From contig CAIIXF020000010.1 of NCBI GenBank assembly GCA_903813345.2, positions 26,808,425 through 26,872,424 on the forward strand: 64,000 bases of DNA. The letters are read 5' to 3'. A model generated the notes under the pieces. It saw only the letters and a program-made list of their open reading frames with translations. It ran no database searches and was not told where the DNA came from. The DNA is from Owenia fusiformis. Lineage: Eukaryota; Annelida; Polychaeta; Sabellida; Oweniidae. The translations under genes and the position numbers were made by a program. Positions 3,801-60,858 of the stretch are shown piece after piece; the stretch's first letter is position 1; each line of letters opens with the position of its first letter.

Positions 3801-5503
3801 ATATAGGGACCAAGATGATGGCCTCATAGAGAGTCTTATATGTGTTCTGGTTATATATCAACACACAGTTCATCAGTAAGTGACTTGACAAATCAAATAC
3901 TTATTTTGCAACCAACCAACTTTACAAGCAACAAAAATGTATGTCATCTTAGCATGAAATTTTATTGTACATGTACATGCAATTTGAATTCAATTCCTTT
4001 TTCATTACAACAGAAAATCTAAGTTTAGTTAGCTCAGTTGTCCCATGAGATTTGGTTCTGGTCCAGACAACAGCATAATTTGTTTTTTTGTATTAATGTT
4101 TGACACCCTTTTTCTGTGATTAGCTACAACAAGTTAAAAAGATGTGGGATTACATGTACTGGGTGTGCTTTCAGAAAATATGATATTTTAAAATTTTTAT
4201 ATAGCAAGGCTTAATTTGGAGGACATTGATATTTCATTAATTAATATTTCATTGTACAAGTATTATAATTCTATATTGCAGGGAAGCAAGAAACTCCTGG
4301 CTTTTAGCTCACAGGTTGTTTCTTAACTGCATGGATCATTTCTCATTTGACCACACAGTCCTCCTGGACCTCCTCACTTCACCAGAGACATCATTCCTTC
4401 TCTATCTTACCAAGATGTTAAAACTTCTCATCAATGAATGGAGCATGTTTATCATGATATGTGGACATGTGCACCCACCAGTGGCAACTGAAGAATCAAT
4501 AACTGATGAATTGGTGACATCTGAACAAACAATGGATATAACTGATGAATCAAGAGTAGCAACTAAACAATTATTGGGTATGAATAATGAATCTTGTGTG
4601 ACTACTGAACAATCAATAGACATGACTGATGAATCTCCAGTGATAACTGAACGAACATTGGATATAACTGATGAATCACATCTGGCAATTAAACAATCAA
4701 TGGGCATGATTGATGAATCTCCAGTGACAACTGAACACATGTTGAGCATGTCAAATCAATTACCAGTATCAAATGAACAAACAAGTGTATCTGAACAATC
4801 AGCATCAATATCAGCACAATCAAATCAAGTAAGTGAAAAATCATCATTTCCAATTTTATCAAAAATTAATGACATTCAGACAACCAATTATAATCATGCC
4901 ACAAATGATGGTAAAAATGCCTTATTGATAAAGGATTTTAAGGACAAAGGGTCTGTCTTATCAGACAACCTCTGCACACAGAGCAACAGGAGAGCATTGG
5001 TGGAGTACTCTGATAGCTCAACTGACAACTCAGAAGATGAAGACTGCATAGCAACATCACATCTCGCATCTCCAAATCTGAATGAAATGAACACTACTCA
5101 TGAACTAAATACTGGAGGAAAGGATTCCCTGGCAAAACAAGATATATCTCATTCCACTGGTGAGATGCTATTAGATTTAGATCAGTTTAATGAAAATCTC
5201 AATCTCAGCAAATGTGGTACAACAAATCCAGATAACACTGAAGCATTGTCAGAAACCAATAAAGAAGTTCAGACAAATGATGACATTGCAGATGAAGCTT
5301 CAGACATAAATGATGGAAGTTCATATTCAAATAATTCTGATAGTCACCTTTATAACGAATCATTGTTGGACAAAGTTATGACTCTTCTTATTCAGCTGAG
5401 ATTTGCTTTAGAAAGACTTGTGCATAAAAACCTATTTCCATATAATGCAAATCCCCTAATAAGACTTCTTGAAGAATGTGAAGCCTTGTATGAGACGCCC
5501 TGA
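888..5503 (+). CDS. LINS1: Protein Lines homolog (LINS1), 5'-truncated by the window edge
   Basis: Six exons join in one frame to give the C-terminal 739 residues: 888-974, 1392-1521, 1920-2457, 2649-2782, 3767-3875 and 4282-5503 (stop TGA). All junctions are GT-AG and the phases agree. Family marks are DDYVSYSAAKTLVYIL in the first visible exon, FRLYRDQDDGLIESL in exon 5, LLDLLTSPETSFL at the start of exon 6 and RLVHKNLFPYNANPL near the C-terminus; these match the remembered N- and C-terminal Lines domains. Human LINS1 is about 757 aa, so few residues should be missing upstream. Between the two domains lies a poorly conserved, acidic, Thr/Glu/Asp-rich linker with a 14-residue tandem repeat (4504-4755). 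Lines acts in Drosophila patterning and human LINS1 is linked to intellectual disability; the molecular function is unclear. An AATAAA overlaps the stop codon at 5503. The gene is convergent with CACTIN. Confidence 0.88.
1759..1882 (+). mobile_element. MITE family with GTTATAGTCTCC core, copy A
   Basis: A short element of about 113-124 bp in a LINS1 intron. It starts ATGTCACCACC and ends GTGGTGACAT, so the ends are inverted, and it contains the family core GTTATAGTCTCCAAC. It ends about 37 nt before the 3' splice site at 1918-1919, in sense orientation. Related copies are at 17247-17767, 25976-26032 and 53143-53260. Confidence 0.7.
2976..3469. mobile_element. TA-flanked MITE with CTGTAAAACGGGTA termini
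   Basis: A 494-bp segment in a LINS1 intron bounded by TACTGTAAAACGGGTA and its exact reverse complement TACCCGTTTTACAGTA. If the outer TA is the target duplication, the terminal repeat is CTGTAAAACGGGTA. The subterminal regions carry repeated CGCTAAAAT and TTAGCG motifs on both sides, as expected for transposase binding sites. No coding capacity. Termini resemble those of the element at 39555-39985. Confidence 0.82.
4504..4755 (+). repeat. 42-bp coding repeat in LINS1
   Basis: Within the last LINS1 exon a degenerate 14-residue unit of the form ESPVTTEQSIDMTD recurs about six times. The 42-bp period keeps the frame. It lies in the linker between the conserved Lines regions. Confidence 0.75.
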
Positions 5504-16761: not shown

Positions 16762-19700
16762 ATGGCTTCAGCAAAGACAGGTTCCACGAAACAAAAAAAT
16801 AAATTGAGCTCTCAAAAATCAAAAGTTTCCAACTCTCAGTCTCAGTCTCTTGGATTAGAAAAAGGAATGACAAATTTGACACTGAAACGAGGTGATGACA
16901 TTGATCTTACAAATCCAGAGGCTGTACTCAAAGCACTTGAACTCGCAAATCTGACTGAAGAAGAAACTGATATACTATTGCAAGAGGCATATGAAATAAA
17001 TGCCAGACTCAAGATGCAGCTTGAAATTCAAGAGCGCAGTGAATCATCGAATGGCCATACTAGGCAAATGGAACGTTCAAAGACTCAAGTTCAAAGTAAT
17101 GGTAAAAAGACAATCCTGCCACCAATATCAAATAAACCACTCACAAGCAAAGGCCATTCACCTCGACAAAGTGCAACACAAAAACAAGACTCCTCACTGA
17201 ATCCCAAACCCTCCTCCTCCCCCACAGTAAGCCATTCAGTTTGTTAGGTCAACACCACAAGTGATGATATACTTCACTCCTGGTAATTTTCAAGTGCTAA
17301 TATATTTCGCCCTTTTCGTGAGTTTTGGAAAATTCCATAAATAAAATTCCAATAGCTCAAATTCTCCATTTCACTTTATCGCATCCTACAACCTCCACTA
17401 CAAATCTAAAGTGGTCATAGGATTCGATAACATTTCACTCAGTGTTGACAGTATTTTCTTCCATTGAGGGGCGACAAAAGGTCCATTCGGTAAACCTTTC
17501 AATCAAATGAACCTCCCAACAACCTAATTTCAGGTTAAACCAAAATGTTCAAATTTTGAGAAGTTACAGAATGACAGATCTACGAAAATTATTAGCTGCG
17601 AAATTTGGAAAAGCAGAAAATTTCAAAATTACAAAATTGCGAAATATAATAGCGTCAAATATTAGTATTGTTATAGTCTCCAACTTTTTGTGGAGGTTGT
17701 TCGGCAGTTGGTGGTTAGCATTCATTGTCCAGCATATGTAACAAATGGCAGGTTGAGACATTTTGTTAAAGCCTTGTCAAATTTACAAATGCAATAGTCC
17801 TTTCACCGTTACAATTCAATTGTAGACTGAAAGTGCCTCGTAGTAGTAGTAGTTATCCCAACGAATATCATTTTAATCTACTCTGTGATATTGGTATATG
17901 CACTCGTTCGCTTCGCTCTCTCGTGCAGATATCAATATCACCTCGTAGATAAAAATGATATTCCTCAAAATCATAGGATATCCTATAAATAGTTTTACGC
18001 AAAAAAAAATTTTCAAGATGGCCGCCGCTTTAAAAATGACGGGACTTTTTCGCAAAAATCATAAATTTTTCATTCTAAACCAAAGTAATTAATATTATTG
18101 TTTGAAATTTTGGTAGTATATTCACAACATTTATCTATTTCACATATATTCCGTGTTTTTCATCCTGACCCCCAGGGGCTGTGTATGGGGGGTCAGGAAA
18201 ACAGAAATTTTCACTAATTTTTAGATCTTTCTGAAGTATAGCTTTATTATATGAAAGGCAATTAAGAGTAGATTGCAAATATTGTATCTTTTTTCTGATT
18301 CGAGCCTCGTAAAATTCAAAATGGCCGTCTAATGTACGATTTCGCAATAATTTTTGGATCCCTTCAAAGTATGGCTATATTATACTCAAATTGAAGGATT
18401 TTTGGAGTAGATCACAATTATGGTATTATTTTTCAGATTTGTACCTCAGAAAATTCAAAATGGCTGCTTTGCAGGAATTCACAATTCTAAAATCAAATTT
18501 TTTCAATTTTAACCAAAGTAATGAGTATAATTGATTGGAATTCTTTAATTGATATTTTGTTCGTTGGGATTTGCTACTCCGCGGAGTTGCCGTTATCTAG
18601 TTTTAATTTTGTTTGATGGCAGACTGATACCATATGATAGAAATATGGTCTTCCTTGATTGTAGATTGATAGTAGTATTGCCTTTTGATTGTAGACTGAT
18701 GCTGTATGTCAACAGTATGGTGTTGCTTAATTGTAGACTGAAAGTAGTATTGCCTTTTGGTTGTAGACTGATATTGTCTGATAGCAGTATAGTGTTGCTT
18801 AATTGTAGACTGAAAGTAGTATTGCCTTTTGATTGTAGACTGATGTTGTCTGTCAGCAGTATGGTGTTGCTTGATTGTAGACTGAAAGTAGTATTGCCTT
18901 TTGATTGTAGACTGATATTGTCTGATAGCAGTATGGTGTTGCTTAATTGTAGACTGAAAGTAGTATTGTCTTTTGATGGTAGACTGATATTGTCTGATAG
19001 CAGTATGTTTTTGCTTAATTGTAGACTGAAAGTACTATTGCCTTTTGATGCAGGGCGGATCTGGGAACCAATAAGGGGGGGGGGGGCAAATTTTAGGTTA
19101 GAGAAAAAAACCAGTTAAAGGCCCAGTAATGACCAAAAAGGCCCACTTTTTGAGGCCTTAAGGCCTTTTTTGGCCCAACATTTTTTTGGGTCCAATTTTT
19201 TTTTCTGGGCCCACCCAAGGTGGGGGCCCGGGTCCCCAGGCCAGATCTGCCAGTGTGATGGTATCTGATATTGTCTGATAGCAGTACGGTCTTGCTTAAT
19301 TGTAGACTGAAAGTAGTATTGCCTTTCGATGGTAGACTGATATTGTCTGATAGCAGTATGGTCTTGCTTAATTGTAGACTGAAAGTAGTATTACTGATAT
19401 TGTCTAATAGCAGTATGGTCTTGCTTAATTGTAGACTGAAAGTAGTATTGCCTTTTGATGGTAGACTGATATTGTCTGTCAGCAGTATGGTGTTGCTTAA
19501 TTGTAGACTGAAAGTAGTATTGCCTTTCGATGGTAGACTGATATTGTCTGATAGCAGTATGGTCTTGCTTAATTGTAGACTGAAAGTAGTATTACTGATA
19601 TTGTCTAATAGCAGTATGGTCTTACTTAATTGTAGACTGAAAGTAGTATTGCCTTTTGATGGTAGACTGATATTGTCTGTCAGCAGTATGGTGTTGCTTA

Positions 19701-21980
19701 ATTGTAGACTGAAAGTAGTATTGCCTTTTGATGGTAGACTGATATTGTCTGTCAGCAGTATGGTGTTGCTTAATTATCCCAACGAATGAAGTTCGGTAGG
19801 GATATAGTGAAGTCCTCCGTCCGTCTGTCCGTCAGTCAGTCAGTCAGTCAGTCAGTCAGTCAGTCAGTCAGTCAGTCAGTCAGTCCGTCCGTCTGTCCGG
19901 AAGATAACTCAAATACTAGTAAATGGATTTTCTTCATATTTAGTGGAAAGATGTATATTGGTGAATAATTTTACGCAAAAAAAATTTTTCCAAGATGGCC
20001 GCCGCTTTAAAAATGACGGGACTTTTTCGCAAAAATCATAAATTTTACATTCTAAACCAAAGTAGTTAATATTATTGTTTGAAATTTTGAAAGTATATTC
20101 ACAACATTTATTTATTTCACATATATTCCGTGTTTTCCATCCTGACCCCCAGGGGCCGTGTATGGGGGGGACAGGAAAACAGAAATTTTCGCTCATTTTT
20201 AGATCTTTCTGAAGTATAGCTTTATTATACTCAAATGAAAGGCAATTAAGAGTAGATTGCAAATATTGTATCTTTTTTCTGATTCGAGTCTCGTAAAATT
20301 CAAAATGGCCATCTTATGTACGATTTCGCAATAATTTTTCGATCCCTTCAAAGTATGGCTATATTATACTCAAATTGAAGGAATTTTGGAGTAGATCACA
20401 ATTATGGTATTATTTTTCAGATTTGTATCTCAGAAAATTCAAAATGGCTGCTTTCCAGGAATTCACAATTCTAAAATCTAATTTTTTCAATTTTAACCAA
20501 AGTAATGAGTATAATTGATTGGAATTCGGTAATTGATATTTTGTTCGTTGGGATTTGCTACTCCGCGGAGTTGCCGTTATCTAGTTGTAGACTGAAAGTA
20601 GTATTGCCTTTTGATGGTAGACTGATATTGTCTGTCAGCAGTATGGTCTTGCTTAATTGTAGACTGAAAGTAGTATTGCCTTTTGATGGTAGACTGATAT
20701 TGTCTGACGTCTGTCAGCAGTATGGTGTTGCTTGATTGTAGACTGAAAGTAGTATTGCCTTTTGATGGTAGACTGATATTGTCTGTCAGGAGTATGGTCT
20801 TGCTTAATTGTAGACTGAAAGTAGTATTGCCTTTTGTTGTAAGACTGATATTGTCTGATTGTATATGGATAGTATTATTGCATGCCCTTTTTCTGATAGC
20901 AGTATGGTTTTGCTTGGCTGTAGATTGCGCTGTATTGCCCTTTTTGATGGTAGACTGATATTGCCCGATTGTGCACTGATAGTATTATTGCATGCCCTTT
21001 TTGATGGTAGACTGATATTGCCTGATTGTGCACTGATAGTATTATTGCATGCCCTTTTTGATGGTAGACTGATATTGCCTGATTGTGCACTGATAGTATT
21101 ATTGCATGCCCTTTTTGATGGTAGACTGATATTGCCTGATTGTGCACTGATAGTATTATTGCATGCCCTTTTTGATGGTAGACTGATATTGCCTGATTGT
21201 GCACTGATAGTATTATTGCATGCCCTTTTTGATGGTAGACTGATATTGCCTGATTGTGCACTGATAGTATTATTGCATGCCCTTTTTGATGGTAGACTGA
21301 TATTGCCTGATTGTGCACTGATAGTATTATTGCATGCCCTTTTTGATGGTAGACTGATATTGCCTGATTGTGCACTGATAGTATTATTGCATGCCCTTTT
21401 TGATGGTAGACTGATATTGCCTGATTGTGCACTGATAGTATTATTGCATGCCCTTTTTGATGGTAGACTGATATTGCCTGATTGTGCACTGATAGTATTA
21501 TTGCATGCCCTTTTTGATGGTAGACTGATATTGCCTGATTGTGCACTGATAGTATTATTGCATGCCCTTTTTGATGGTAGACTGATATTGCCTGATTGTG
21601 CACTGATAGTATTATTGCATGCCCTTTTTGATGGTAGACTGATATTGCCTGATAGTTATATGATGTGGTTTGATGAATGACTGACTTATTGTAGTATTGT
21701 TGACTAATCCTGTTTGAGAGTGTAGACATGATTGTTTTAAATTGTAAGAATGTTTTCAACTTTATCTACCATTACCGGTACCATTTGCAATCAAAGGTTC
21801 CTTTCAAATGTTTCTATACATAACACATGAATGATTTATTTTCAGAAGCGTTCCACTAGAGTTTTGTCAGGCACATCTAAATCTGGACCAGGATCTGCTC
21901 CAACATCCCGCAAGTCCGCCAGCTCTTCGTCAAATACTAAGTCGCAACCACAATGGAATGATAGGTTCAACTACTCCTGA
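16762..21980 (+). CDS. Unrecognised 199-aa disordered protein, two coding exons
   Basis: Exon 1 is 16762-17226 and exon 2 is 21846-21980 (stop TGA). The donor ACA|GTAAGC and acceptor TTTTCAG|AAGCG are both phase 0, giving 199 aa. The ATG at 16762 (MASAKTGS) is chosen; the frame is open a little upstream, but only from a GTG. Residues 1-45 are Ser/Lys/Gln-rich. Residues 50-95 look structured and helical, with NPEAVLKALELANLTEEE followed by DILLQEAYEINARLK. The rest is Ser/Thr/Pro/Lys-rich and ends QPQWNDRFNYS. I do not recognise the family. The frame-consistent splice, helical block and ordered C-terminal motif argue for a real gene. It is divergent from CACTIN and convergent with PRDM10. Confidence 0.7.
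17247..17767 (+). mobile_element. MITE family with GTTATAGTCTCC core, copy B (long)
   Basis: It begins about 20 nt after the donor of the 199-aa gene with GTCAACACCACAAGTG and ends near GGCAGGTTGAGACATTTTG. It contains GTTATAGTCTCCAAC and TTCGGCAGTTGG, shared with the copy at 53143-53260. Longer than copy A, so it may be a fuller form. Sense to the host gene. Confidence 0.6.
17854..18601 (+). mobile_element. Helentron-like non-autonomous element, copy 1
   Basis: Begins TATCCCAACGAA and ends GTTATCTAGT. The inverse of the 5' motif, TTCGTTGGGAT, lies close to the 3' end, followed by the palindrome ACTCCGCGGAGT (18576-18587) about 10 nt before CTAG. This asymmetric inverted repeat plus 3' hairpin is the Helentron/DINE-type layout. 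The body is closely similar to copy 2 (19775-20585). Here the 5' microsatellite block is replaced by a hairpin at 17864-17962. Confidence 0.82.
17864..17962. mobile_element. Hairpin inside Helentron-like copy 1
   Basis: About 99 bp with arms AATATCATTTT..GTGATATTG and CAATATCAC..AAAATGATATT around a loop containing CTCGTTCGCTTCGCTCTCTCG. Its loop resembles that of the hairpin at 5761-5930. It is absent from copy 2. Confidence 0.72.
18602..19774 (+). repeat. 72-bp minisatellite with 57-bp variants
   Basis: Tandem units of about 72 bp containing TTGTAGACTGAAAGTAGTAT and GGTAGACTGATATTGTCTG; some units lack 15 bp, leaving 57. The array is interrupted by an insertion at 19051-19255. Related sequence begins near 17815, before Helentron-like copy 1, so the array predates that insertion. 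Long open frames here arise because 72 and 57 are multiples of three; the region is intronic. Confidence 0.9.
19051..19255. mobile_element. 205-bp MITE with TGATG target duplication
   Basis: Starts CAGGGCGGATCTGGG and ends CCAGATCTGCCAGTG, imperfect inverted repeats, flanked by TGATG at 19046-19050 and 19256-19260. The interrupted minisatellite unit normally reads CCTTTTGATGGTAGACTG, supporting a 5-bp duplication. The interior has GGCC-rich motifs and homopolymer runs. A partial inverted copy is at 54088-54200. Confidence 0.82.
19775..20585 (+). mobile_element. Helentron-like element, copy 2, with ACTG/ACGG microsatellite
   Basis: Same termini as copy 1 (TATCCCAACGAA..GTTATCTAGT; hairpin ACTCCGCGGAGT at 20560-20571). 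After the 5' motif comes a CCGT/CAGT microsatellite, about 19815-19895. It is inserted in a minisatellite unit: left flank GCTTAAT, right flank TGTAGAC, and neighbouring units read GCTTAATTGTAGAC. It therefore went between two Ts with no target duplication, as Helentrons do. Related ACGG/ACTG elements are known in bivalves. Confidence 0.88.
20586..20930 (+). repeat. 72-bp minisatellite, continuation
   Basis: Resumes directly after Helentron-like copy 2 with the same 72-bp unit, then degrades into the transition to the 57-bp array. Confidence 0.85.
20940..21655 (+). repeat. Homogeneous 57-bp minisatellite, about 12 copies
   Basis: Nearly identical 57-bp units containing GATGGTAGACTGATATTGCC and GCACTGATAGTATTATTGC. 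The period is a multiple of three, so both strands stay open throughout (19-residue periods). The lack of divergence points to recent amplification. It ends about 190 bp before the acceptor at 21845, inside the intron of the 199-aa gene. Confidence 0.95.
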
Positions 21981-47200: not shown

Positions 47201-50008
47201 CCCTTCGCAAAAATTTCAAAATCATGCAGTTTTCTCACCATTCTGAGTACTTTTCAACTGATTTTGGCCATTTTTGTCAAAAGTGAAACCCCTGGAATTT
47301 TTAAAAAGTGAATCCCCTTGGCAAATCCTGGTTACGGACCTGGTATAGTTAGAGAATGCAATATTATTGTGCAGTATAACTGTGTTCTATGTGTGATGTC
47401 TGATTGTAGGAGAGGCTGAAGGCTGAGGAAGAGGAAATGTTGAAGAAACAAGATGAGGAAAAACAAGCAAGAATTGCACTCAGAAGAGAGCAAAAGCTTT
47501 TAGAAAAACAGGTAGAATTACATAGCACTATACACATAGATATTTTTAATAATCTAAACATGGGAGTAGCTTTTTAAACAGAAAAGTGAAAATCGGAGAG
47601 CTTGTAAAAAATAAGAAAATCCAATAACCTTTATATTTTATTTTGTTCTATAAATTATTATATCCAAAGTAATAAAAATTGACATCAATTTTAGATACTA
47701 TCTAGTAACTAGCCCTCATTTTTGAAACGTTACTAAAAGATGATGTCTAACAATTTTTTGGTTTAATTTTTTGAAGTATGTGATGAAAATTGACCTTGAC
47801 GTTTTTGAAATTTTTCACTCAACCGATATCAGTAAGAAGTTTTGATTTAAATTGGTATTTGCCATAAAGGTTGGAACCATAAAATCTGAAGACGGACATA
47901 GAGGTGGACATACAGCCAGACAGACAAGTTGGGATTTTTCAACATGTTAGTCGAAAACCACATGTGCTCAAATTAATAGAATACGTAGAGCTCGTATATA
48001 ATTCTTTGTCATCCCTGCTTTCAAAAACAAAGCATGCTCTATTCTCAGATTCTAGAGAAAAAATATTTGTAACATTTATGCATGCATTTTATCTTCGAGA
48101 TTAACAAGATTTGTCTATTCATTTCATATATTTGAAATCAGAAACAATTCCACCACTTGGTAAAGACTCACACTGTGTATTATGTATTTTTAGAAAGAAA
48201 AGGAAAAACAAGAACAAGCTTCTAGAATGAGAGAGCTTCAAGAAAAGGCAGATGTCCACTATAGACTAAGCGTCATGAAGTATTGGGGTTTTATTCCACT
48301 TAGAAAGGTGGCAGTGCAGGCTAAAAACGACAGGAATGCTGCTGATCATTTCAACAATACATGTCTAATGAGGTATTATGTTAATATTTCCTTCATATAT
48401 ATCCACTGGATAATGAATCTATAGGTCCTACTCATTTAAACCATCTGAACAGATGGAAAGTGTGATTCATCTGAATCAATGCTCATATCAATTTTTGGGT
48501 ATTTCCTTCATATACATCTACTGGATGGTCACTGTTGAGCCTATCAATCATCTGTCCATCTGTTTGTAAGTTTCCAAACTGCCTGAATCTGAGCCAATGC
48601 GCATTTCAATTCTTTAGGGGTATGGTGTTAAATCCTGGCTCTTTTAGATTAGGTTTCTAAGCTCACATGAAGAGCCTATGCAATCACCCATTCATTCATC
48701 TATATGACTTCTTGCCAACAATTTCGAGACAAAACAACTGGCAATAGACTAAACCAATGCTCAGATCAATTTTCGGAGTCCTTAATATACACCATTTCAA
48801 CATGTGAACCATTGTTGTATCGTAAACCATGCCTTCTCCATCTGTCCTTCTGCGATACACAGTGAGAGATGCTACGAACATCAGAATGCTTGTGCCCAAA
48901 CGAATGGTGCCATTACAAAAAATGGTTACCAAAATGAATGCACTGACTTTAATCGGTATTCTTTCAGGCACGCTTTTACGAGGTGGGACAGTAAAACAAG
49001 ACAGGTCGTCTCAGAGAAAGAGAAAGTGGCAGATGAATATTATGACTTCCTTATAGTGAAGAGATGCATGAACAACTGGAAAAGGGTATGCTCTTGTCAA
49101 AATAAAACTTTGAAATCATTTTCCATTAATTTATTAATTTCATTCTTTCATAAATTATTTTAGTGTTAATTACTAGTAAGAGTAGCCTACAAATATTTTA
49201 TCATTGAATTGGCTTGAAGTCTTGGATGTCCTCATTGTCTGCATTTTTATATGAAATTGGAAGGTATAGATAGATGAAGAGATATTAAAGATAATATTTC
49301 AGATTCATTAATTCAGAGTTACAATTTCAATGTTTTCTTCAAGTTCAGTATTTTTCAGAAATTTGATGAAGAGAGACCTTTTTATTGTCTTCAACCCTGG
49401 AAGTTGATGAGGAATGTGATGATTTTTGTATGCACTTCTTATTGTAAAAGATGATTTATTCTCTTATTGTTGGGTTTGTCAAAGTATTAAGTCTCCTTTT
49501 GGTGGATGTATTGACCAGAGTTTGGCACTAAGCCTCTTTTAATAAATATTTCAGTGTCGGCAGTATATGGCAATCCAACAGGAAAAGGCAGACATGTTTT
49601 ACCTGAAAAGGTTACGTGCACGTTTATTTCTTGCCTGGGTAGATGTCACCACTGAAGAGAAAATATCTGGCTGGGAAAAAGAACGAATAGCACGGGAGCA
49701 TAACATATGGTCAGTATTACATTGTATTAATTAATATAGGCGTGCAATCAACTTTTAATCATTAAAGGGAAACTTCTTTAATATCTTGGCCAATTGAGTA
49801 TTTTGAAAAAAGACAAAGCAGAAACACAAACATTTCTTATTTCTATACTTGCAGGCGTCTCAAGAGGATCTCATTCAGCAACTGGAGACAATACCCTATT
49901 ATGTTAAGGCAGGAACGTGAGAAAGAAAAGCGAATCATGAACTTACGAAGAAAAGTAGCTTCAATGTTACCAGACTTTGAAGGTTCTTCTCTTAAAGACT
50001 CTCCCTGA
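38251..50008 (+). CDS. CCDC191: Coiled-coil domain-containing protein 191-like
   Basis: Seventeen coding exons: 38251-38322, 40909-41080, 41587-41787, 42035-42207, 42541-42645, 43122-43240, 43678-43852, 44109-44299, 44623-44857, 45167-45750, 46155-46243, 46500-46582, 47410-47511, 48194-48372, 48968-49085, 49555-49709 and 49855-50008. They give 968 aa in frame, close to human CCDC191 (about 936). The first exon (MTSNNAHLYKWKRS) is assigned by phase and proximity and is the least certain. Exon 2 has DWVKKVEDVSNMAAAQTF. Exons 5-7 and 12-14 are Glu/Lys/Arg-rich coiled coil; exon 10 has a Gln-rich helix. Exons 8-9 and 14-17 carry spaced Trp motifs (LLRAWNAWKSYSRS, CLQAWQLFV, HAFTRWDSKTR, LFLAWVDV, ISFSNWRQYP) resembling SFI1-type centrin-binding repeats. 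A centrosome or cilium role is inferred. SFI1 itself is less likely given length and N-terminus. Confidence 0.82.
38429..39400. mobile_element. Foldback transposon of 972 bp with tandem-repeat arms
   Basis: The ends CTATCTGTTGCAAGACTTA and TAAGTCTTGCAATAGATAG are inverted and pair for about 75 bp. Further in, each arm has repeats of about 70 bp with GTCATGACCGTGGTAATG on the left and inverted CATTACCACGGTCATGAC-type copies on the right. Arms made of short tandem repeats are the classical Foldback layout. It lies in intron 1 of CCDC191. Confidence 0.88.
39555..39985. mobile_element. MITE with TGTAGATTGGGTTAATTTGG termini
   Basis: 431 bp with inverted ends GTAGATTGGGTTAATTTGGC and GCCAAATTAACCCAATCTAC, and subterminal TTTGGCGAA / TTCGCCAA repeats. 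Intron 1 of CCDC191. Layout parallels the element at 2976-3469. Confidence 0.85.
40371..40469. mobile_element. 99-bp palindromic element with 9-bp target duplication
   Basis: Two 33-bp arms with one mismatch, TAACCAAAC..GTAGAT-type ends facing each other, around a 33-nt centre that itself holds CGTAGATCTACG. Exact direct repeats GGTATGTTG flank it at 40362-40370 and 40470-40478. It lies in intron 1 of CCDC191. It has no room for a gene, so it must be moved in trans. Confidence 0.92.
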
Positions 50009-50109
50009 CTCTGTATATCTGCGATTCTAGCACAGGGTTTATAAATTATAATGCCAATATGTTGCATTATATACAGTCAATGCCAGTATTCAACTGTTTG
50101 TTCACTCAG

Positions 50110-50560
50110 GTTGATATAATTTCAATATCCAACTGTGTTGGTAGTGCCAATATCCAACTGTGTTGGTAGTGCCAATATCCAACTGTATTGGTTGTGCCAA
50201 TATCCAACTGTGTTGGTAGTGCCAATATCAAACTTTATTGGTGGTGCCAGTATCGAGCTGTGTAGGTTGACTGTTGGTAGAGCCAATATCCAACTGTGTT
50301 GGTAGTGCCAATATCCAACTGTATTGGTTGTGCCAATATCCAACTGTGTTGGTAGTGCCATATCCAACTGTATTGGTTGTGCCAATATCCAACTGTGTTG
50401 GTAGTGCCAATATCAAACTTTATTGGTGGTGCCAGTATCGAGCTGTGTAGGTTGACTGTTGGTAGAGCCAATATCCAACTGAGTTGGCCGTGCCAGTATC
50501 CAGCTGTTTAGGTTAACTGTGTTGGTTGTGCCAGTATCCAACTGTGTTGGTTGTGATATT
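50110..50560. repeat. Minisatellite with higher-order structure in CCDC191 3' UTR
   Basis: Units of about 27 bp such as GCCAATATCCAACTGTGTTG, grouped into a block of about 185 bp that is itself duplicated (near 50200 and 50388). It starts about 100 bp after the CCDC191 stop and precedes AATAAA at 50966, so it is probably transcribed. Open frames are repeat artefacts. Confidence 0.88.
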
Positions 50561-52584
50561 ATTCAAGTGTTGCTTTTTGTGTTTGTGCCAATATTGTACA
50601 ACTGTTATTGAAAATTCAGTTATACCAATGTCAAACTGTGCCTGTAGAATGGGCGTTATACTTGTACAAACAATTAGATGTTATCATAACGATGGCAGTC
50701 ATTTTTTATGGAGCTGTATTTGTTTGACTTTTAGCTATAGCTCATGAATTATTACTTTATATTAATACTTTGTCATAATTATTGTCACAAGATTGTTAAA
50801 ATATGACTATTGAATTCTCTCACTTGTAAGCACAGTATGTCCATGTTATTATTTAAATCTGTATACAGTATTACATTGCAGTTTTTTGTTGGTGATATAT
50901 CTCATTTTACTATTTACACAGTGGGAATGTACTTGTTATGTGCAGAATTGCAAATTGAATAGGTGAATAAATATTTTAATAAAATATCAATTGCAAAAAT
51001 TAGTTTTGTTAAAAATAATATCTGTTATATTAAAGAACCTTCAGAAATTCACATACAACAGTCTCCACAGGATGTATTTGACAAAGAGATGCAGAAGTAA
51101 GCGAATTCGGAAGGTGAGATAAATCATGGATTTTGTCAAGCCAAATTAAAATAATGATAGTATGACTTTGATCAATGTATCAATAAGTATTGCCAAGTAA
51201 TTTATAAAATACTAAACAACCAGCAATTGTGTGGAGTAGCAAATCCCATTGAACAATAAACCTTTCAAATATTATTTATCATGCTGAATGTTTCAGCTAG
51301 AAATAGATGGCAAATTAGTCACCCATGACACTTTTCAGATATGAAATTAGTATTCAGGTTATAGCCAAAATATAACACTAAACTGAATGTACATATATGT
51401 ATATTTGTTTTTTCGAGTTTACTAGTATTCTAAATGAATCAATACTCCAAAGGAAGGGACATAAAAAATGGACATTAAGATTTTTATGAAGTATATCAAA
51501 GTCGCAGTATGTGCACTGGCAAACTATAAATGAAGATGTATATTTCATTCTAACTTAGATAACATAGAGTTTAAATTGCTAATACGCATGATTTTATTAT
51601 GCCCCAAAAGATAACATCGAAGCTAACTCTCTGTGTCGTACATATGAATTGTGAAGCATAAAGTACAATGTGAGTTTTGGTGAAAAATCTCCCATGATTG
51701 GAATGCTTGCATTAATACATGTATGTAGACTTATATGGGATCAATGTAAACAGAGATATTTTTTAATTAGTTAAAATGTTGTATAAATGGTGGTTAAAAC
51801 AGTGGCCTTTACGTGCAATTTGATACATATTTGGAAAAGGTAACCAGATTTTTAACAATTTCTGTCTCTTTTGTGCATTAAATGCACTTTGTAAAGCACT
51901 AAGTAAAGGCTTATATTGTAGTTAGTCACATATTGCTCAGGTCAATATAGTAAAATAAAAGCCATCTAAATTAGCACTAATACCCCTAGAACAGGCCTGG
52001 CAATGTGGTAATAATAATTTTAACAATGTTTTCAAACTTTGCACGGGCCTTGAAAAGATACTTTTTATGATGCTTACCATGCTAAATAGAACTTTCTGGA
52101 GCAGTAATTTGAAATTCACGTAGCTCTGATGGACCAAAAAATTCAGACTGAGTAAAGGAAGAGTTTAACTACTCTTAAACTTTAACTTTAAAAAATGAAA
52201 TCAGCATTCTTCAAAACCCCAGTAATTTAGCCACCTAAATCATTTCTATAAGCTAAACTGAAGCCTATATATAATATATATATATTCATTTTGATACAGA
52301 AAATAGCCTCATGTCAGAGATGTGTTAGATATATCACAGGTGGGGAGGGGGTCTATACACAGATTTGGCTGAAATTGTTTTGGTCCATCATGGCTACATG
52401 AAGAGGAGCTGGTTTCATCAGCAGCTTGATCTGAGAAGAATGAAACAACCTCATAAGCAATTTTAAGGTTTAACACATGGCCTCTTATAATTGACTGGTT
52501 TTTGGGCCAATCCTGTAAGCAGATATTACTACTAGTATATTAAGCATTAACAATCTCCAGTGTCACTATGGCAAAGTGTATATA
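50561..52584. other. Intergenic gap between convergent CCDC191 and C3orf38
   Basis: Contains the rest of the CCDC191 3' UTR, with AATAAA at 50966-50971 and 50979-50984, and then AT-rich sequence with a short TA run near 52275. I see no gene or clear repeat in 51000-52584. Confidence 0.65.
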
Positions 52585-55067
52585 TTATCCCTGTTCCAAA
52601 GCTAACAAATCTGAGCATCCAGGGTCTTGTAAAGTTGGTAGCTGTGTAACTTGGGAGCTCCTCACTTTTAAATGAGAGAATTTAATCCTCCAATTATCTT
52701 GCATATTTGGGTCACGTATTAATCCAAATTGTTGCTCAAACACACCTAAACATAGGTCATTGCGGTGTATTGTTCCACATGATAACACATTAACTAAGCC
52801 ATGTGCTGTACTATGGCCCTGTGTCCCTTCTGGGGTAGTATTGGGGTTAAATAGTAACCGTTCTTCACGTACAAATGCTAGTAATCTTGCACAGACCCCT
52901 GTAGAGCCTTGATGTTCTTCTTCTGTAATGTCAGGGGTTGCGCATACCATTTTTAACTTACAATCATCCCAGAAATGTTGAGCTCCATATTCATTTGGTT
53001 CAAAGTTTGTAGGATTATTGGCATTTAGCATTTTATAGAACCAAGGTATAAATTTGTATGCTAGGTCTCTTCCAATATTAGTTTCTGGTTTCTGTATGGT
53101 AGATTGTGCAGGAATCTCCTGAAATCATTTACAAACAAGGTATTAACATGCAAAATGTCACCACCTGTCATTTATTACAGATGTGGAAGCCAGATGCCAA
53201 CTGCCGAATGCCGTCATGAAAAAGTAGGAGACTATAACCAATAACAGTATGTCTCCACCAAAAATGATTTTTGATTACAATTTAGTATACATACACATAT
53301 TAGATATACATGTAGTTATTTTAAGTTTGATCAATAAATTATCTTTTAACTGTGTAGTTATGGAATGTTTATTGGGAGAAGAATTTGAAGAAGAATCTTT
53401 TTAATACATATAAAAATCCATTATTTTACTCTTTAGTTTACTAAGTGTCAGGGGAGAACATTGTAAGGTTAGCCATTATCAAGATAATAAAATGCACATT
53501 ACATTGTCATGCGGTAAAATATTGAGTTATCTTCATTTTAAAGTACAAATATGTATTGTTTCATTTTTTAGAGGACCAATTTAATTCTTGCAAAAAATAC
53601 ATTAAACATGACAATGATAGCTTCTCAAAAATATATATGTAGCATTGTCCAACCCCCCATTCCCCAAAAATTCAGAAAATTTGTTAAATAGGTTTTTTAG
53701 ATACCTGTTTTCTAGGTACCCAATTTTCAACACTTTTTCAGTACCCCGCGTAGAGGATAGGATCAAGTACCCAGTCCCTCTTTTTTTCACTAAACCCTGT
53801 TTGTTCACATTTTTTCTTTAGGATAGATATATGAGCTTTGCCAAACTGATTTACCTGATGTCCATTCCAATGTTGAATAATTGCTTGGATCAGGATGCGC
53901 TTCTCTGCCCTCACAGGAACAACCACATTCTTGAGGACTAGGTATTGGAAAAGGAAATCACGTTTCAACCTCTGACGTTTTAATAGTTCTTCTGCACTTT
54001 CAGAGTATGTAACCAAAACATTGATTGCCTCTGTAAAAAATGTGAATTAGTATAGAAATGTAACTCAAAAGTCCAACAACATAAGACCTAGCCTGGGTGG
54101 GCCCAGAAAAAAAATTGGGCCGAAAAAAAATTTTGGGCCGAAAAAGGCTTGAAGGCCCCAAAAGGTGTGCCTTTGGTCATTACTGGGCCTTTTGAGGCCT
54201 TATTTATTGTACAGTGAAATTTTTGGAAACACCAATATAAAAAAGTTTGTGTAAAAAACCGGGTGACCAGGTAACCAGTTAGCCGGGTGACTGGGTACCC
54301 TACCTTCCTACCAGGGTTAAGAATTTGATTTTTTCATTTTATGCCTCAAAACGCCCAACTGGCATCCCAATCAACGTACCAGTGACACAACCGATCAAGC
54401 AAACAACCAAACAAGCAACAAAATTTATTAACCAATAAATCAACCGGCAAAACGACACAAAATTAATATAATGTCAATTGGTGAGGCAATAAATCAAGCA
54501 ACTAAAGTTGTATTGAACATCGTACACTAATGAACAGATAAAAACGGCAAATAACGTTTCAAATTACGCATACGTAAATATTCCAGATTTGTTTAATATC
54601 TAGTAGAAATCGCCATCATAGAAAACAATCATCGATATTCTGTCAATCGCTCGGACAATAAATCAAGCAACTAACGTCATCATACGTGTAAATTGTGTTA
54701 ATAACTACCTAGGACTTCCGAAATTCAGTCTCTTACAGGTTCTTGGTAAAATGATAATGTAAAAATATTGAAGGGTAGTCTACAAATGTGCAACTTTGAA
54801 AGTTGGTAACCCTGCAAGGAACGTTAGTACCCGGTTACCCGGCCACCCGGTTTTTTACACAAACCCCAATATAATATATTTCAAAATTGAATCTAGAAAT
54901 TGAAAATGAAACAACTTTGACTTTTTGAGTTTCAGTTTGAGCTCACCTGATTTTGTTTCTGCATTAATCTTCTTTCCCGTTACTGTATCTTTTAGCAGTT
55001 TGATATCATTCTCATCAAGATTAGATAATAACTCTTTACATCCAATTTTTTCGTTTTCTGTTAACAT
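52585..55067 (-). CDS. C3orf38: C3orf38 homologue (DUF4518 family)
   Basis: Three coding exons on the minus strand: 55067-54947, 54030-53855 and 53118-52585. They give 276 aa in frame (human about 329). Matches to remembered human C3orf38: the start MLTENEKIGCKELLSNLDEN, the YSESAEELLKRQ block at the exon 1/2 boundary, and in exon 3 YGAQHFWDDCKLKM, HGLVNVLSCGTIHR and CLGVFEQQFGLIRDP. The C-terminal half is expected to adopt an NTF2-like fold. Function is poorly known; a role in apoptosis has been suggested for the human protein. The C-terminus is shorter than human. Intron 1 contains a 625-bp MITE with a 9-bp target duplication; intron 2 contains MITE copy D 24 nt before exon 3. Confidence 0.92.
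53143..53260 (-). mobile_element. MITE family with GTTATAGTCTCC core, copy D
   Basis: On the minus strand: GTGGAGACATACTG, GTTATAGTCTCC, TTCGGCAGTTGG and finally GGTGGTGACATTTTGCATGT. It shares the end of copy A, including flanking TTTGCATGTTA, and lies about 24 nt before the C3orf38 exon 3, in sense orientation. Confidence 0.72.
54088..54200 (-). mobile_element. Partial copy of the 19051-19255 element
   Basis: The reverse complement shares GGCCCAGTAATGACC, AGGCC-rich blocks and TTTCTGGGCCCACCC with the MITE at 19051-19255. The termini are lost. It lies in intron 1 of C3orf38. Confidence 0.72.
54241..54865. mobile_element. 625-bp MITE with 9-bp target duplication
   Basis: Inverted ends around GTTTGTGTAAAAAACCGGGT and ACCCGGTTTTTTACACAAAC, flanked by exact CCAATATAA at 54232-54240 and 54866-54874. 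Subterminal GGTAACC and GGGTAC motifs recur on both sides. No coding capacity. Intron 1 of C3orf38. Confidence 0.85.
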
Positions 55068-57479
55068 AGCTTTTAACTAGGGAAGTCTAAACATCTAAAC
55101 TGAAAATTTTATCTAAAACTTGGCAAACAGGAAGTGTATTCTTGTGCTGGGTTACGTTTTACACTGAACGACATGAGAGATGTTTTTCGCCCAGGGCCGG
55201 GGTCTTGGTTTTGCCTTTTGTCCTCGTTTTGTCTCAAATCCTCAAACCTAAAATTAGGTACCTTCACTTCTGAGCCCAAGGTCGGTTGAAATGAAAAGTC
55301 AAAGCTCTGTCGATCCAGTGACTGTAGTATATTGGGTTCCTTGACCACTTTTACACTCTTACAAAGGCTCCCTTAAAACCTAGGGCATTTTACATAATTT
55401 GTAAACTTATATCCAAGTCAGTGATTATGGCTTTCTACACTCGTATAACTGAAATCCCGGGCCTCGGATGTTATATATATTATATTTCCTGTTTTCCAAA
55501 TGAATGATGATTACAATTTTGAATTTTCCCGGTTATTCAGACTGCGCACGCATCATTAAGGTAGTGTTTATGAGCAAAGGTCAAGATCGCGTACCTTTAC
55601 AGGTACGACAAATTAGTTTCAATTTCCTGAACATGTTCTTTCCTTCACCCAAGAGTGAAGCGACTTTAACTCAGGCTTACCTGTACTACATTAATATCAG
55701 ACATTTGCCTTGAGATTCACATATGGTTTTAAGACTCTACGATTGCGGAGGAAAACAGGTAAAGTACATTGTACATCAGTGTTAATACTCGTATACGTAA
55801 ATGAGACGCCATATTGGAAGTATTAACAATAATTGAAATAATTATCACCATGTTAACGAATTCAAAACGGGTACTCCTGAAAACTGACTGGCAATTGACT
55901 GACCAGTGAAAGTCCGTGAGCCTCGTGGCCGGCAGCACACAATGACTGGTCCCCGGGGACTGCTCAGTGAAGTCAGCTGGTCGAAGACTATTACTGTCTG
56001 ACATATGTAAATTGTCAAATAAATTTGATTATAAAACTTGTTTAACTCGATGTGTTTTGCCAGTATTGGGGCAAAGCTGTAGGTGTAAGATGCTGTGGCC
56101 AAAAAAACGTACATGTCATTTGTATTCACAATTGGGTACAATATTGTTTTTTATAGCCTATCGATATGTATCGAACTTATGTTATCTTTAAAGGTGCTAC
56201 AAATAGTGCAGGGGGGCCATTCAACGATCATCGACAAGTGTCAAAATATATTTAGGTTTGGATATTTCATCAAGACTAACATATATTTTCATTATCTACA
56301 AAGAAACCCTCTGGATGAACATTATTTCAGCTGATATTCCTCTTGAAACATGGTGGATCTTAAAAATCTATAAGTGGGACTCCCTTTATAGAAGCTTTGA
56401 ATTGAATTTACACTTCTTAATGCTGAAATTGATAGTTTATACATACATTTTATGAAAATAGGTATGTCAAAGAAGGTATTAAGCCAAATATTGACCTGAT
56501 AGCTCAGAAAAAATAAAAAATTTCGAATTTTCTCTCTACAGTCCTTATTGCCTCTTTAAAAAGGTGTATTTAACACTTGATTTTGCCAAATTTGAGTCTG
56601 GTAGCTTTTATCGCAGGGGCTAAGCCAGGAGTATAAATAGGCAAAGAAGTGAGCCATCATGGCTAAATGAGATATAAATATTGTAACTTCATTTTCCATA
56701 GTCTTTTGTTGAATAAGAATGTTTATTCAATATTTGTGCAAAAAACTAGTCTGACAACTGCTTCGCCTGTCTCATACCTGTCTATACCCATGTCCTTGCA
56801 ACTATGTCACGAACAATGTATATTTTGCCTTTAACAACACCTTAACAACATGACATTGTCAATGAATGTCACTGGATTGTCATTAATAAATGTACAGTGT
56901 AGTATTATTCTACCTCGTGCACGAATTTTTTACTATTGTAAATGCCATGCGTGTGTTTGCCATGCCATCATATCAGTGTACATGCATAGTGTTATTTCAT
57001 AATGTTCAGTTTATTTCGTCTATTTCCAATGGTCCCAAAACATGCTATAAAAATAACGACGCCGTGTCTGGATGCTAACTTGAACGTATCGGGCATAGCT
57101 GTTCACTACACGAGCACAGACATCTTGCGTTATGGCTCTCATCTTCCTTCTTATCTCTTGTTTCAATATTTCAAGGGTTCATTGAACAAATTGTGCCAAG
57201 ATTTCAAATTCCATGCTGATTTTTTGGCCCACCCTGTGCGTATGAATACTTTATTTCAGTACTACTGAGTCACCATGTCGTGTCATTATCGCATTTTTTC
57301 AGAGCTGGGAATCAATACTTCGTTGTAGTTTTTGGCATTAGTCATCGTAATCAGAATGATCGTGCCATTCACAAATTCAAAATGTTTAAATCAAATCTTA
57401 TCTTGACACTCCTAGATTATCAAATCAGGAAAGCGCATCTCTATTTTACCTTTGATGACAATTATTCTTTCCATTCCAG
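55068..57479. other. Divergent intergenic region between C3orf38 and the HtrL-like gene
   Basis: About 2.4 kb. A minus-strand open frame at 55348-55109 just upstream of C3orf38 has no recognisable motif and is left uncalled. The inverted-repeat arm at 56279-56566 lies here. The acceptor CATTCCAG at 57472-57479 implies an upstream non-coding exon of the HtrL-like gene that I cannot place. Confidence 0.6.
56279..56566 (+). repeat. Left arm of a long inverted repeat flanking the HtrL-like gene
   Basis: About 88% identical to the reverse complement of 63733-64000, by eye. Shared blocks include GAACATTATTTCAGCTGATA, CCCTTTATAGAAGCTTTGA and TTTCGAATTTTCTCTCTACA. Either a large inverted duplication or two copies of one dispersed repeat. 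Confidence 0.85.
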
Positions 57480-57486
57480 TTGGAAA

Positions 57487-58998
57487 ATGCCTTCCACCAA
57501 CACGAATGAAGAGAAGTCAAAACGACGTTGGTTTTTTAGAGGAAAGACCAGCAAAGACGATCTCCCTGATGATAAAAAGAAAGACAAAGACAAACGAAAC
57601 AAACGTAAAAGTATAGAAGAATATGATTCCGAAAATGAGGAACGTTCAGAAACCCAAGAAGAAACAATAAACAAAAAGGGCAAAAGCAAAAAGAAAGGAA
57701 AGGACAAAGGTAAATCAAAAATGAAGGAGACATCTGCCAATGAGGACAGTGATATAGATAGCGGTGTGAGTAGCAAGACCTCAAGTAAGAACAAAGAAAA
57801 AACTTCCGGGAAAGGATCTAAGAGGAAAGAGAAGAATAGATCTAAGAAAGATGAGTTAAGTAACGAATTTGAAGATGAAGAAACAGAAAGTACTCTTGAT
57901 GTATCAAAAGACTTGAAAAAGGATGACATGGAGGTATCAGATGAAGATGTTCTCGATGGTGAAGACACACGAGGAAGTGAACTAGCAGAGAGTACAAATG
58001 AAGATAGAAGTAGACCCTCTACGTCTCAATCAAAAGAGAGGTTAGATAGTACCGATCCACTTGGAGGCCCATATTCTGATTCCTATGCGTCTACTGGATC
58101 GTTTGATAAAACAGTATCGTCTATGGGAAGTTCATCTGACGAAATAACGATTGTGACTGCTTATTTTGACATCGGGAGCGTCCGGTTTGACGGTAAGAAA
58201 AAACGGACCCCTTCAATGTATAAAGAATGGATGAAAGTGTTCTCACGAGTTGCCAATCCTGTTGTAGCTTATTTCGATACCGAGCACGCAGCCCACAAAT
58301 TCCGACAAAGCAGGGAGAATTTTCCTGCAGAAATGACTAAAATTGTTCAAGTTGACAGACAGAGAATGTGGGCATTTGCTCTCCGAGATGAGATCTCAAA
58401 AGTATTTCGTAGCCCAATGTACCCCAGTATTGCCCCAAACACAGTGAATCCAGAATTCGCCTGTGTAACACACGCTAAGTATGAACTCATGGACGATGCT
58501 ATACATAGTAATTATTTCGAAACCAAGTACTATGCTTGGATGGATTGTAATATTTTCAAGGATGACATTAAATCAACTGGCGACCCATTCACATTAGCCC
58601 TACCCATTCACTTTGATACTCACAAAGTTGCATATAGTCAGATCTCAAAGAAAAATGACATCTTCACTCACGTTGATATCATAAAAAATAACCATAACTG
58701 GCTCTCTGGTAGTTTCTTCCTCGCTAGGCGAGATGTCATGAAACTTTGGACTCAGGAGTACAGGCGATACATCCACAAGTTTATGGACATGAGCATCATG
58801 ACCACTGATCAGCATTGTATATATGCCATGTTTGCCCCGCGTTTATACGAGCGTCCACGTATCGGTATTCAGACATACAACGCCCCACCCAAAGGAAAAA
58901 TTAAGCCTCATCTATATCTGGTTGACCTGTGTCGAAAGGCAGGAGATGAGCTAGAAGGCCGGGCTGGGAAGGACAGCGTTGACTGCGTTGTCATGTAG
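57487..58998 (+). CDS. HtrL/YibB-domain protein with C-terminal CaaX box
   Basis: One coding exon, 503 aa. The frame extends upstream, but an acceptor (CATTCCAG) ends at 57479, so the ATG at 57487 (MPSTNTNEEKSKRRW) is chosen. Residues 1-215 are disordered and rich in Lys, Glu, Asp and Ser. The HtrL/YibB domain (remembered as PF09612) spans about 218-470: it opens with TIVTAYFDIG and has YYAWMDCNIF near 347-356, matching the family AYFD and AWID motifs. The family is a putative glycosyltransferase group first seen in bacterial surface-polysaccharide loci and present in several invertebrates. There is no signal peptide or membrane segment. The last four residues are CVVM, a CaaX box with Met, predicting farnesylation and a cytosolic membrane-attached location. 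AATAAA at 59615-59620 may be its polyadenylation signal. The gene is enclosed by inverted repeats. Confidence 0.85.
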   Translation: MPSTNTNEEKSKRRWFFRGKTSKDDLPDDKKKDKDKRNKRKSIEEYDSENEERSETQEETINKKGKSKKKGKDKGKSKMKETSANEDSDIDSGVSSKTSSKNKEKTSGKGSKRKEKNRSKKDELSNEFEDEETESTLDVSKDLKKDDMEVSDEDVLDGEDTRGSELAESTNEDRSRPSTSQSKERLDSTDPLGGPYSDSYASTGSFDKTVSSMGSSSDEITIVTAYFDIGSVRFDGKKKRTPSMYKEWMKVFSRVANPVVAYFDTEHAAHKFRQSRENFPAEMTKIVQVDRQRMWAFALRDEISKVFRSPMYPSIAPNTVNPEFACVTHAKYELMDDAIHSNYFETKYYAWMDCNIFKDDIKSTGDPFTLALPIHFDTHKVAYSQISKKNDIFTHVDIIKNNHNWLSGSFFLARRDVMKLWTQEYRRYIHKFMDMSIMTTDQHCIYAMFAPRLYERPRIGIQTYNAPPKGKIKPHLYLVDLCRKAGDELEGRAGKDSVDCVVM

Positions 58999-60369
58999 AC
59001 ACGTTGCCATTCAGATAATACAATTATCATTCCCTTGCTATTATCATTCCAGTAATTGCATTGATTCCAATTTGTACCATTCATAGATTGCTCAACCAAT
59101 GAGTGACGTCAAATGTGCAATTCTGACATTCTGAGGGGTGCATGCATTTGCATTTTTGAATAATGCTTGCAAGCCATTGGTAATTTGTGAGTGTTTTGGT
59201 AGCTGGGAGTAAATTATGAAATGAACTGATTACATTTAGTAATGTGAAGACAGCTCGAGAGGGAATGCCCTCATTGAAATGTAACAATGGACAAATGTAT
59301 TTGGAACGTTTTCAAGTTATTCAATGTAGATGGTTACATTTTGTTACATCGTTTTTATGTAGTAATTGGTGACATTTTGTTACTTTGTATATGTTGGTGA
59401 TATTGTATCAAATAATGGCATTTTAGTGACAAATTTTGTTTCTATGTATTAGTGATATGTTTTCTTTCGAAAAGGTGCAATCAAGCTATTGCGAATGAAG
59501 TTCAATATTTAAAACGAGATGCAGTATTCATTTTAAACTGCTGCTGTATATACTGCTTGCATATAATTATGCCTTGCTTTTTACGTTATTGCTTTTTAAA
59601 ATACTAATATATTGAATAAATATAGTATGGTATACTTGTGATATCTTGAAATTTATTTTTATTTAACATTTTTATGCGTTCTGTGGATTTTGTGATGTTT
59701 AACATTGTATTACCACTGTTCTCCAACTAGTTACGTCAATGTTATAAAATGAAGGAAAGTTTTAGTTCCATAAGATTTTTTGTTTTCATGATTTTAACCT
59801 ACTTCTAAGTCGAGTCGCATATTTTTTGACCAAAAGCTAGAGAATATGGTGTTGTAATAATACACATTCGATTTGAAATTTGGATTTAAAAAGGACGCAA
59901 TTTGAATATTAGTCTTCGCTTTTGTTGCATGCATCGACGAAAGTCTAGAATATTACCATTGTTATGTTGACTTGGACTTGTACCCCAATGTAACAAAAGC
60001 GAGGGACTAAATGTATTAATTTCGGCTCCACTTGGAAAACCAAATTTCCAACCGCGTCCTTGTGTATATTTTGAAACTTGACTATATGTTCTCTAAAAAT
60101 CTGACAATCTACAACTTGAGTTATAATTAGGTTTAAACTGACAAAACTTAACGAGAAGTTCCACTATTTGTTACTTTGACGAGGTCACAGTAAATAGTTG
60201 TGGAAAAGTGATTACTACCACCTGAAGGAAAAACTCAATTAGATATTGACATTACGTAGAATCAGAGAAACTTCATCGTCCTAAAACTAAATACCTTATA
60301 AAAGTTAATTCTGAGATTATTTTAACGAATTGCTTAAAGCTTTTTGAGAACTGAATGAATTCACGCATG
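58999..60369. other. 3' UTR and non-coding sequence after the HtrL-like gene
   Basis: Probable 3' UTR to about 59640, with repeats of TGGTTACATTTTGTTAC type near 59330-59390, followed by sequence in which I see nothing definite. Confidence 0.6.
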
Positions 60370-60649
60370 TTTATACATTCATATAATATCACCAGCAATA
60401 TGATCAAATTAGCATCTCCCTCATTGTCATCAAAACTTTTTGACCTCTTTAATCTTATCTTTAAAACTGGAAATTTCCGTCCGTCTGGAAGGAAGGAAAT
60501 ATCATTCCAATTTACAAAAAGTGAACGAACGACAATTGAAAATTACAGACCAGTGACACTACTGCAAAGTCTATCTAAAATACTAGATAAAGTTATCCAT
60601 TCCCATTTAATCACCCTATCCTATACCGAACATACAGACTGTGCTATAT
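60370..60649 (+). pseudogene. Fragment of a non-LTR retrotransposon reverse transcriptase
   Basis: Translation gives LFDLIFKTG-like text, then in another frame WKEGNIIPIYKK, then ENYRPVTLLQSLSKILDKVI, the typical start of a LINE reverse-transcriptase domain. A frameshift lies near 60480-60530 with a stop in the WKEG frame. It is broken off by the palindromic element at 60650, and the rest is not found on the far side. Confidence 0.78.
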
Positions 60650-60858
60650 CACCCTTGGTATACGCAGCTAACGAAAATTGACCGGTACGGGTCAAAAGTT
60701 GGACCGGTACGGGTTAACGGTTTTGTTTGAATTTAAAACAGCCATAACTTGCTCAATATTGACTTCCTCGTGTCTAATTTGAAATATATGATGCCTCCCG
60801 ATGCTTTTAAGTACCTCAATTTTTTACAGATTTTTAAACGGACCAAAACTCTCTAAAT

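Follow-up and report, generated by a model that had tools for sequence, protein, structure and literature searches.

An HtrL_YibB-domain protein of Owenia fusiformis with a charged N-terminus and a C-terminal CVVM box predicted to be farnesylated

Bacterial members of the HtrL family have been linked to lipooligosaccharide gene clusters, as described in excerpts of two papers, one of which lists HtrL as hypothetical (PMC10327509; PMC4172580). According to a table in the former, HtrL_YibB stands without a Pfam clan (PMC10327509). In animals, the Caenorhabditis elegans protein HTRL-1 (T11F9.12) likewise carries PF09612. The excerpted text on it describes it as secreted, 736 residues long and carrying a saposin-family pattern, and reports expression of htrl-1 in the worm (PMC8989417). 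By this description it is set apart from the protein presented here, whose 503 residues lack a hydrophobic start. Mentions of HtrL/YibB among the literature matches listed, as far as their excerpts extend, concern bacteria, C. elegans, a coral and a snail. These listed matches include no biochemical study of an animal HtrL member and no prenylated or CaaX glycosyltransferase, most subscription papers being outside the coverage.

Farnesylation at a CaaX box has been described for proteins with other domains. N-Ras ends in CVVM. On a GFP-Ras2 reporter in yeast, this sequence was shifted in the presence of human farnesyltransferase (FTase) and unshifted without FTase, as given in the excerpted text (PMC11152559). 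A CaaX box can also direct an enzyme to endomembranes, the case described in an excerpt on OAS1 p46 (PMC8357416).

The locus analysed here lies in a stretch of 64,000 nucleotides of Owenia fusiformis DNA, referred to as the window. Its forward strand contains a frame of 503 codons encoding what we call the HtrL protein (Table 1). The C-terminus reads ...GRAGKDSVDCVVM and is followed by TAG, the last residues being KDSVDCVVM. The surrounding ATG-started frame begins at 57382, encodes 538 amino acids and ranks second in length among the 16 listed window frames of at least 120 amino acids. A start at this in-frame ATG was rejected because it requires intron retention. The 35 extra residues that it would add reach a best 19-residue hydropathy mean of 0.67 and contain no membrane span.

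The HtrL protein matches PF09612 with an E-value of 1.1e-10 and 42.1 bits (cut-off 24.1), covering profile positions 2-237 of 267. At E-values up to 0.1, this was the single Pfam domain of the protein. Two YibB equivalog models of NCBIfam match at E-values of about 1e-13, with scores far under their cut-offs (TIGR02192, 51.5 bits versus 264.9). We therefore place the protein in the HtrL_YibB family, but not among the YibB equivalogs. The domain is preceded by a region rich in Lys, Ser, Glu and Asp (37 K, 36 S, 27 E and 26 D in the first 215 residues). Residues 1-125 carry a net charge of +13, residues 126-215 one of -17. By hydropathy, no membrane span, signal peptide or N-terminal signal anchor is present in the 503 residues, where the maximum 19-residue Kyte-Doolittle mean is 0.58. 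The original prediction had named the frame with its coordinates and CVVM terminus, the HtrL/YibB domain, the lack of a signal peptide or membrane span and, at the N-terminus, about 215 charged and disordered residues. All of these were borne out, the disorder by the structure models described below.

Table 1 Features of the HtrL locus and its neighbour in the window
Feature	Position	Strand	Remarks
Divergent neighbour gene with DUF4518	52585..55076	-	At least three open stretches: 52585-53031, 53741-54046, 54858-55076
Probable 3' splice acceptor tract TTCTTTCCATTCCAG	57465..57479	+	Directly 5' of the coding exon; weight-matrix score 9.32
Coding exon, 503 amino acids plus stop	57487..58998	+	Open from ATG to TAG; A at -3 of ATG 57487
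Charged N-terminal region, residues 1-214	57487..58128	+	Mostly disordered in the model
HtrL_YibB (PF09612) match, residues 219-442	58141..58812	+	Pfam; GT-A-like in the model
WMDCN, residues 351-355	58537..58551	+	Corresponds to W-x-D-[AF]-G of the family, with W351 and D353 retained and N in place of G
CVVM C-terminal CaaX box, residues 500-503	58984..58995	+	From the sequence; TAG directly after
AATAAA poly(A) signal	59615..59620	+	617 bases past the stop

The position of the CaaX box depends on the 3' end of the gene. Splice sites were scored with Shapiro-Senapathy frequencies rather than with a model trained on Owenia fusiformis. On this scale, the last 290 coding bases (58709 to the stop) contain no donor site scoring above 4, and the next donor-like site past the stop, at 59186 in the 3' region, scores 4.6. 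Together with the poly(A) signal downstream, this makes it likely, as judged from the sequence, that the CVVM terminus is the true 3' coding end. One strong donor-acceptor pair lies inside the exon (donor 58192, score 8.76; acceptor 58728, score 11.23). The corresponding intron of 535 bases (58193-58727) would remove W351 and D353, shift the frame and alter the terminus, and was judged unlikely.

The 5' end of the gene is less sure than the 3' end. The acceptor tract ends 7 bases before the ATG and ranks in about the top 1% of the AG sites of the window on the rough weight matrix, so that an upstream exon is likely. If coding, such an unseen exon could add a signal anchor. The space available for it is bounded by the DUF4518 gene, which is probably the homologue of human C3orf38. 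The open stretch 54858-55076 of this gene covers the first positions of the DUF4518 profile at 22 bits, under the cut-off of 27. The gene lies on the opposite strand and leaves about 2.4 kb for an upstream HtrL exon, barring overlap of the two genes.

With a leader encoded in this space, the HtrL protein could be a luminal or secreted glycosyltransferase, the K/E-rich part forming a stem and the CVVM box never meeting FTase. We consider this very unlikely. The good acceptor speaks for it, as do hydrophobic stretches in several in-phase upstream frames and, in the excerpted description, the secretion of C. elegans HTRL-1 (PMC8989417). Against it, every join that brings in a long hydrophobic stretch depends on a donor with a score under 5. 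We screened positions 50,000-57,470 for in-phase joins of a single exon whose donor scores at least 5 and found four that start with ATG, none carrying a membrane-span-like stretch. The sole one of them inside the 2.4 kb, at 57235 (donor score 5.2), adds just the ten residues MLIFWPTLWK. When the donor threshold is dropped, the interval 55,065-57,470 has 146 GT sites, of which 52 permit a join starting with ATG. Several of these 52 carry hydrophobic stretches, with donors all below 5. The limited space, the A at -3 of the ATG and the presence of only one N-glycosylation sequon, N117 in the N-terminal region, also count against a luminal protein. A leader split over several exons is possible. 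A separate signal-peptide-like frame at 57132 (MALIFLLISCFN..., 17 residues) was rejected, since neither GT site before its stop fits the phase of the exon at 57480.

Structure models were obtained with AlphaFold for the full protein, using an alignment, and for the domain alone (33 sequences). In the full model, a mostly disordered N-terminus is followed by an alpha/beta domain (mean pLDDT 59, pTM 0.56), while the domain alone reaches a mean pLDDT of 72 and a pTM of 0.75. In the full model, pLDDT is below 50 at residues 1-38 and 62-214, with a low-confidence helix at 32-63. Residues 241-360, including the strand with the W-x-D motif, have block means of 67-96. Residues 361-390 are poorly modelled, and the domain model is also poor (below 50) at 455-482 and 492-503. 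The tail, residues 491-503, has pLDDT values of 47-59 in the full model, which places 500-502 in a strand of low confidence. In the domain model the corresponding residues 282-293 (492-503 of the protein) fall below 50. Low values here in both models would suit a flexible, accessible tail in front of the CaaX box, but the whole of the last approximately 50 residues of the domain model is poorly modelled.

Foldseek searches with both models place GT-A glycosyltransferases at the top. Most are of family GT6, the blood-group (ABO) and alpha-1,3-galactosyltransferases, which form the majority of the top 50 matches. The best E-values are 9e-4 for the full model and 6e-3 for the domain model, at TM values of about 0.4 and identities of 6-12% in the rows listed, which sets the HtrL protein apart from GT6. 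GT6 enzymes carry a DxD motif, and those of animals are Golgi type II proteins. The model strand 348-352 of the HtrL protein ends at the W-x-D motif, the position where GT6 has DxD. On the models, a GT-A fold class is likely for the HtrL domain. The best BFVD matches of the full model are giant-virus glycosyltransferase-like proteins (Pithovirus LCPAC, Bodo saltans virus) with E-values down to 4e-13; the eleven top rows, which include one phage protein, show identities of 12-19%. Sequence searches of the PDB with the HtrL protein gave no meaningful match, and PHROGs gave none.

The search for relatives covered phage, viral-contig, plasmid and bacterial sequences. A tblastn search of phages yielded four records, and a profile-guided scan yielded 69 viral-contig loci and six bacterial loci. 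In one bacterial phylum, the family is present in 3 of 200 genomes drawn, the starting genome included. A viral-contig scan with the single protein returned five stretches, none of them a relative, and tblastn against plasmids found no relative. Nearer relatives were sought in the viral contigs with two DNA patterns for a W-M-D-C-N-type motif, which returned 0 and 38 stretches. Six-frame pieces longer than 60 residues from these 38 had no match to the family profile at E-values up to 5, and their best tblastn E-value was at least 0.55.

We aligned the HtrL protein with 36 of the 75 viral and bacterial loci, most near-duplicates and odd lengths having been dropped by hand. Residue counts are based on 26 relatives with less than 80% identity to one another; identity of the relatives to the HtrL protein is 15-23%. 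T221, V223, I229, Y245, K331, W351 and D353 are common to the HtrL protein and all 26. The HtrL protein thus shares with the bacterial and phage forms the Pfam match, the T-[IL]-V-T-A start of the domain and the W-x-D motif. It differs at three positions: R231 and Y324 (26/26 relatives each) and G355 (25/26) are replaced by Ser, Phe and Asn, with an Arg, R233, two residues past S231. E318, also found in all 26, is aligned to N318, yet an NPE sequence five residues on (E323) could align via a gap, so that the E318N change depends on the alignment. The set behind these near-invariant residues is phage and bacterial only, and R231, Y324 and G355 could be peculiar to that branch. Two further bacterial members, L082 and L083, agree by eye with the relatives at 231, 318, 324 and 355; they are the only new genes among four such loci, L080 and L081 being the same genes as L075 and L074.

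The replacements R231S, Y324F and G355N, with E318N subject to the alignment, make altered catalysis of the putative enzyme possible, as read from the residues. With these residues changed, the label "enzyme" in the earlier description of a glycosyltransferase-like enzyme is insecure.

The two ends of the HtrL protein set it further apart from its relatives. From 79 bacterial and phage loci we obtained 78 complete ORFs, the frame at each locus being selected by script; for L001 and L024 the frame selected may be a neighbouring or partial one. These proteins are mostly bare domains with a median length of 269 residues. Their first motif lies 2-12 residues from the N-terminus in 75 of the 78 (it was not located in L001, L024 and L064), versus 220 in the HtrL protein. 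None of the 78 ends in a canonical CaaX box, and 12 end in C-L-[HR]-[KR]. Both the charged N-terminal region and the CVVM tail are therefore additions relative to the bacterial and phage form sampled. With 2-12 residues before the first motif, we infer that the relatives have no room for a signal peptide, and on these sequences the bacterial and phage members are presumably cytosolic.

Two observations on the relatives concern longer arrangements. In Xanthomonas phage XacN1 (L001), two adjoining ORFs at 745-1485 and 1489-3129 are both HtrL-like, the second being annotated with 1641 bases. Five viral-contig relatives (L009, L022, L056, L064 and L066) have 541-568 amino acids, which suggests a second, fused part.

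How often a CaaX box arises by chance was estimated from the six-frame translation of the window, taking 5911 stop codons and the four sense codons ahead of each. The strict pattern C[VILA][VILM][MSQAC] occurs before 4 of them (0.068%) and the PROSITE-type pattern C-{DENQ}-[LIVM]-x before 49 (0.83%). CVVM is found once, in the HtrL frame itself. With an assumed animal amino-acid composition, about 0.03% of protein ends should carry the strict pattern, which gives about eight chance boxes, besides true ones, in a genome of 25,000 genes (an assumed number). The box is improbable by chance for one given gene, yet several are to be expected in a whole animal genome. The CVVM end could accordingly be an accident, the HtrL-like protein being soluble in the cytosol or nucleus and unprenylated or only incidentally prenylated; the locus would then be an ordinary divergent HtrL-domain gene. 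This is an unlikely reading in our estimate. The chance rate of about 0.03-0.07% of ends and the absence of a canonical box from the 78 bacterial and phage relatives leave room for it. The sequence before the box, GKDSVD, also fits such an accident: no second membrane signal is present, neither a polybasic stretch nor a second Cys adjoining CVVM of the kind found in Ras proteins, and the nearest Cys is 482. On the other side, an accessible CVVM would be expected to be modified, given the excerpted result that the NRas CVVM reporter is an FTase substrate (PMC11152559).

It is this published substrate that makes farnesylation, with a cytosolic or nuclear-envelope site, the best prediction from the sequence. 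What the sequence establishes is the frame, the domain match, the terminus and the missing hydrophobic span in the 503 residues, while farnesylation, location and activity are inferred. Our favoured explanation, to which we give about an even chance, is a soluble GT-A-like HtrL_YibB protein with a charged disordered N-terminus that is farnesylated at Cys500 and held at a cytosol-facing membrane. The protein would be synthesised in the cytosol. After farnesylation of Cys500, cleavage of VVM and methylation, the domain would be tethered by its lipid to a cytosol-facing membrane: the ER, the Golgi surface, the plasma membrane or, with the aid of the basic clusters, the inner nuclear membrane. A second, electrostatic contact to the membrane, or a nuclear contact, may come from residues 1-125, the basic half of the N-terminus. 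At the membrane, the domain would act as a sugar transferase on a protein or lipid, or else only bind a nucleotide sugar. In comparison with N-Ras and other CaaX proteins, the C-terminal box is alike and CVVM identical to that of N-Ras in the excerpted account (PMC11152559), whereas the domain is different, an adjacent polybasic or palmitoyl signal is missing and prenylation is a prediction.

The basic half also bears on the site. Within residues 31-80 it matches K[KR]x[KR] four times and a bipartite-like pattern once. It is possible that these act as nuclear localisation signals (NLS) and that the farnesyl group anchors the protein in the inner nuclear membrane in the manner of B-type lamins, with the HtrL domain as a sugar-binding or enzymatic module there. 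This narrower form of the favoured explanation appears distinctly less probable to us than an accidental box. Lamins, as far as the excerpt goes, pair an NLS with a farnesylated CaaX box (PMC5973256), and the HtrL protein has NLS-like patterns and the box in common with them. Lys-rich disordered segments, however, readily match NLS patterns, and the Pfam scan found no rod family. The farnesylated, cytosolic protein of the original prediction stands as a prediction, with an intact CVVM, a plausible 3' end and a known FTase substrate behind it; the inner nuclear membrane is a further possible site. The claim that a cytosolic site is unusual is upheld against the Golgi enzymes of animals and the secreted HTRL-1, but not for the family, whose bacterial and phage members are presumably cytosolic.

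A wider evolutionary reading can be attached to the favoured explanation. An animal lineage may have acquired an HtrL glycosyltransferase domain of bacterial or viral type and retained it in the cytosol, where it gained a farnesyl anchor and a tail with oppositely charged halves. The result would be an enzyme tethered to a membrane and glycosylating targets in the cytosol or at the nuclear envelope, where the surface-glycan enzymes of animals are not known to act. We regard this as doubtful. If CVVM is conserved and used, the HtrL protein would represent, in an animal, a glycosyltransferase-like protein with a lipid anchor on the side of the cytosol or nucleus. It would also offer a testable location and a simple assay, the FTase shift, for an animal member of an uncharacterised family.

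Further features were observed elsewhere in the window. A short open stretch at 60535-60660 (+) reads IENYRPVTLLQSLSKILDKVIHSHL and resembles what we take to be a piece of a LINE reverse transcriptase; a Pfam scan of its 42 residues gave no match. At 4331-5503 (+) lies an exon of a LINES homologue, with LINES_N and LINES_C matches and a degenerate 42-base tandem repeat within the coding sequence. A 145-base tandem repeat occupies positions 1-740 from the window edge (5.1 copies, 93% match). The region 20936-21653 consists of 12.6 copies of a 57-base unit with 99% match and is open on both strands, with repeat ORFs of 271 and 284 amino acids. Similar-looking 72-base units are found at 18612-19775 and 20585-20857.
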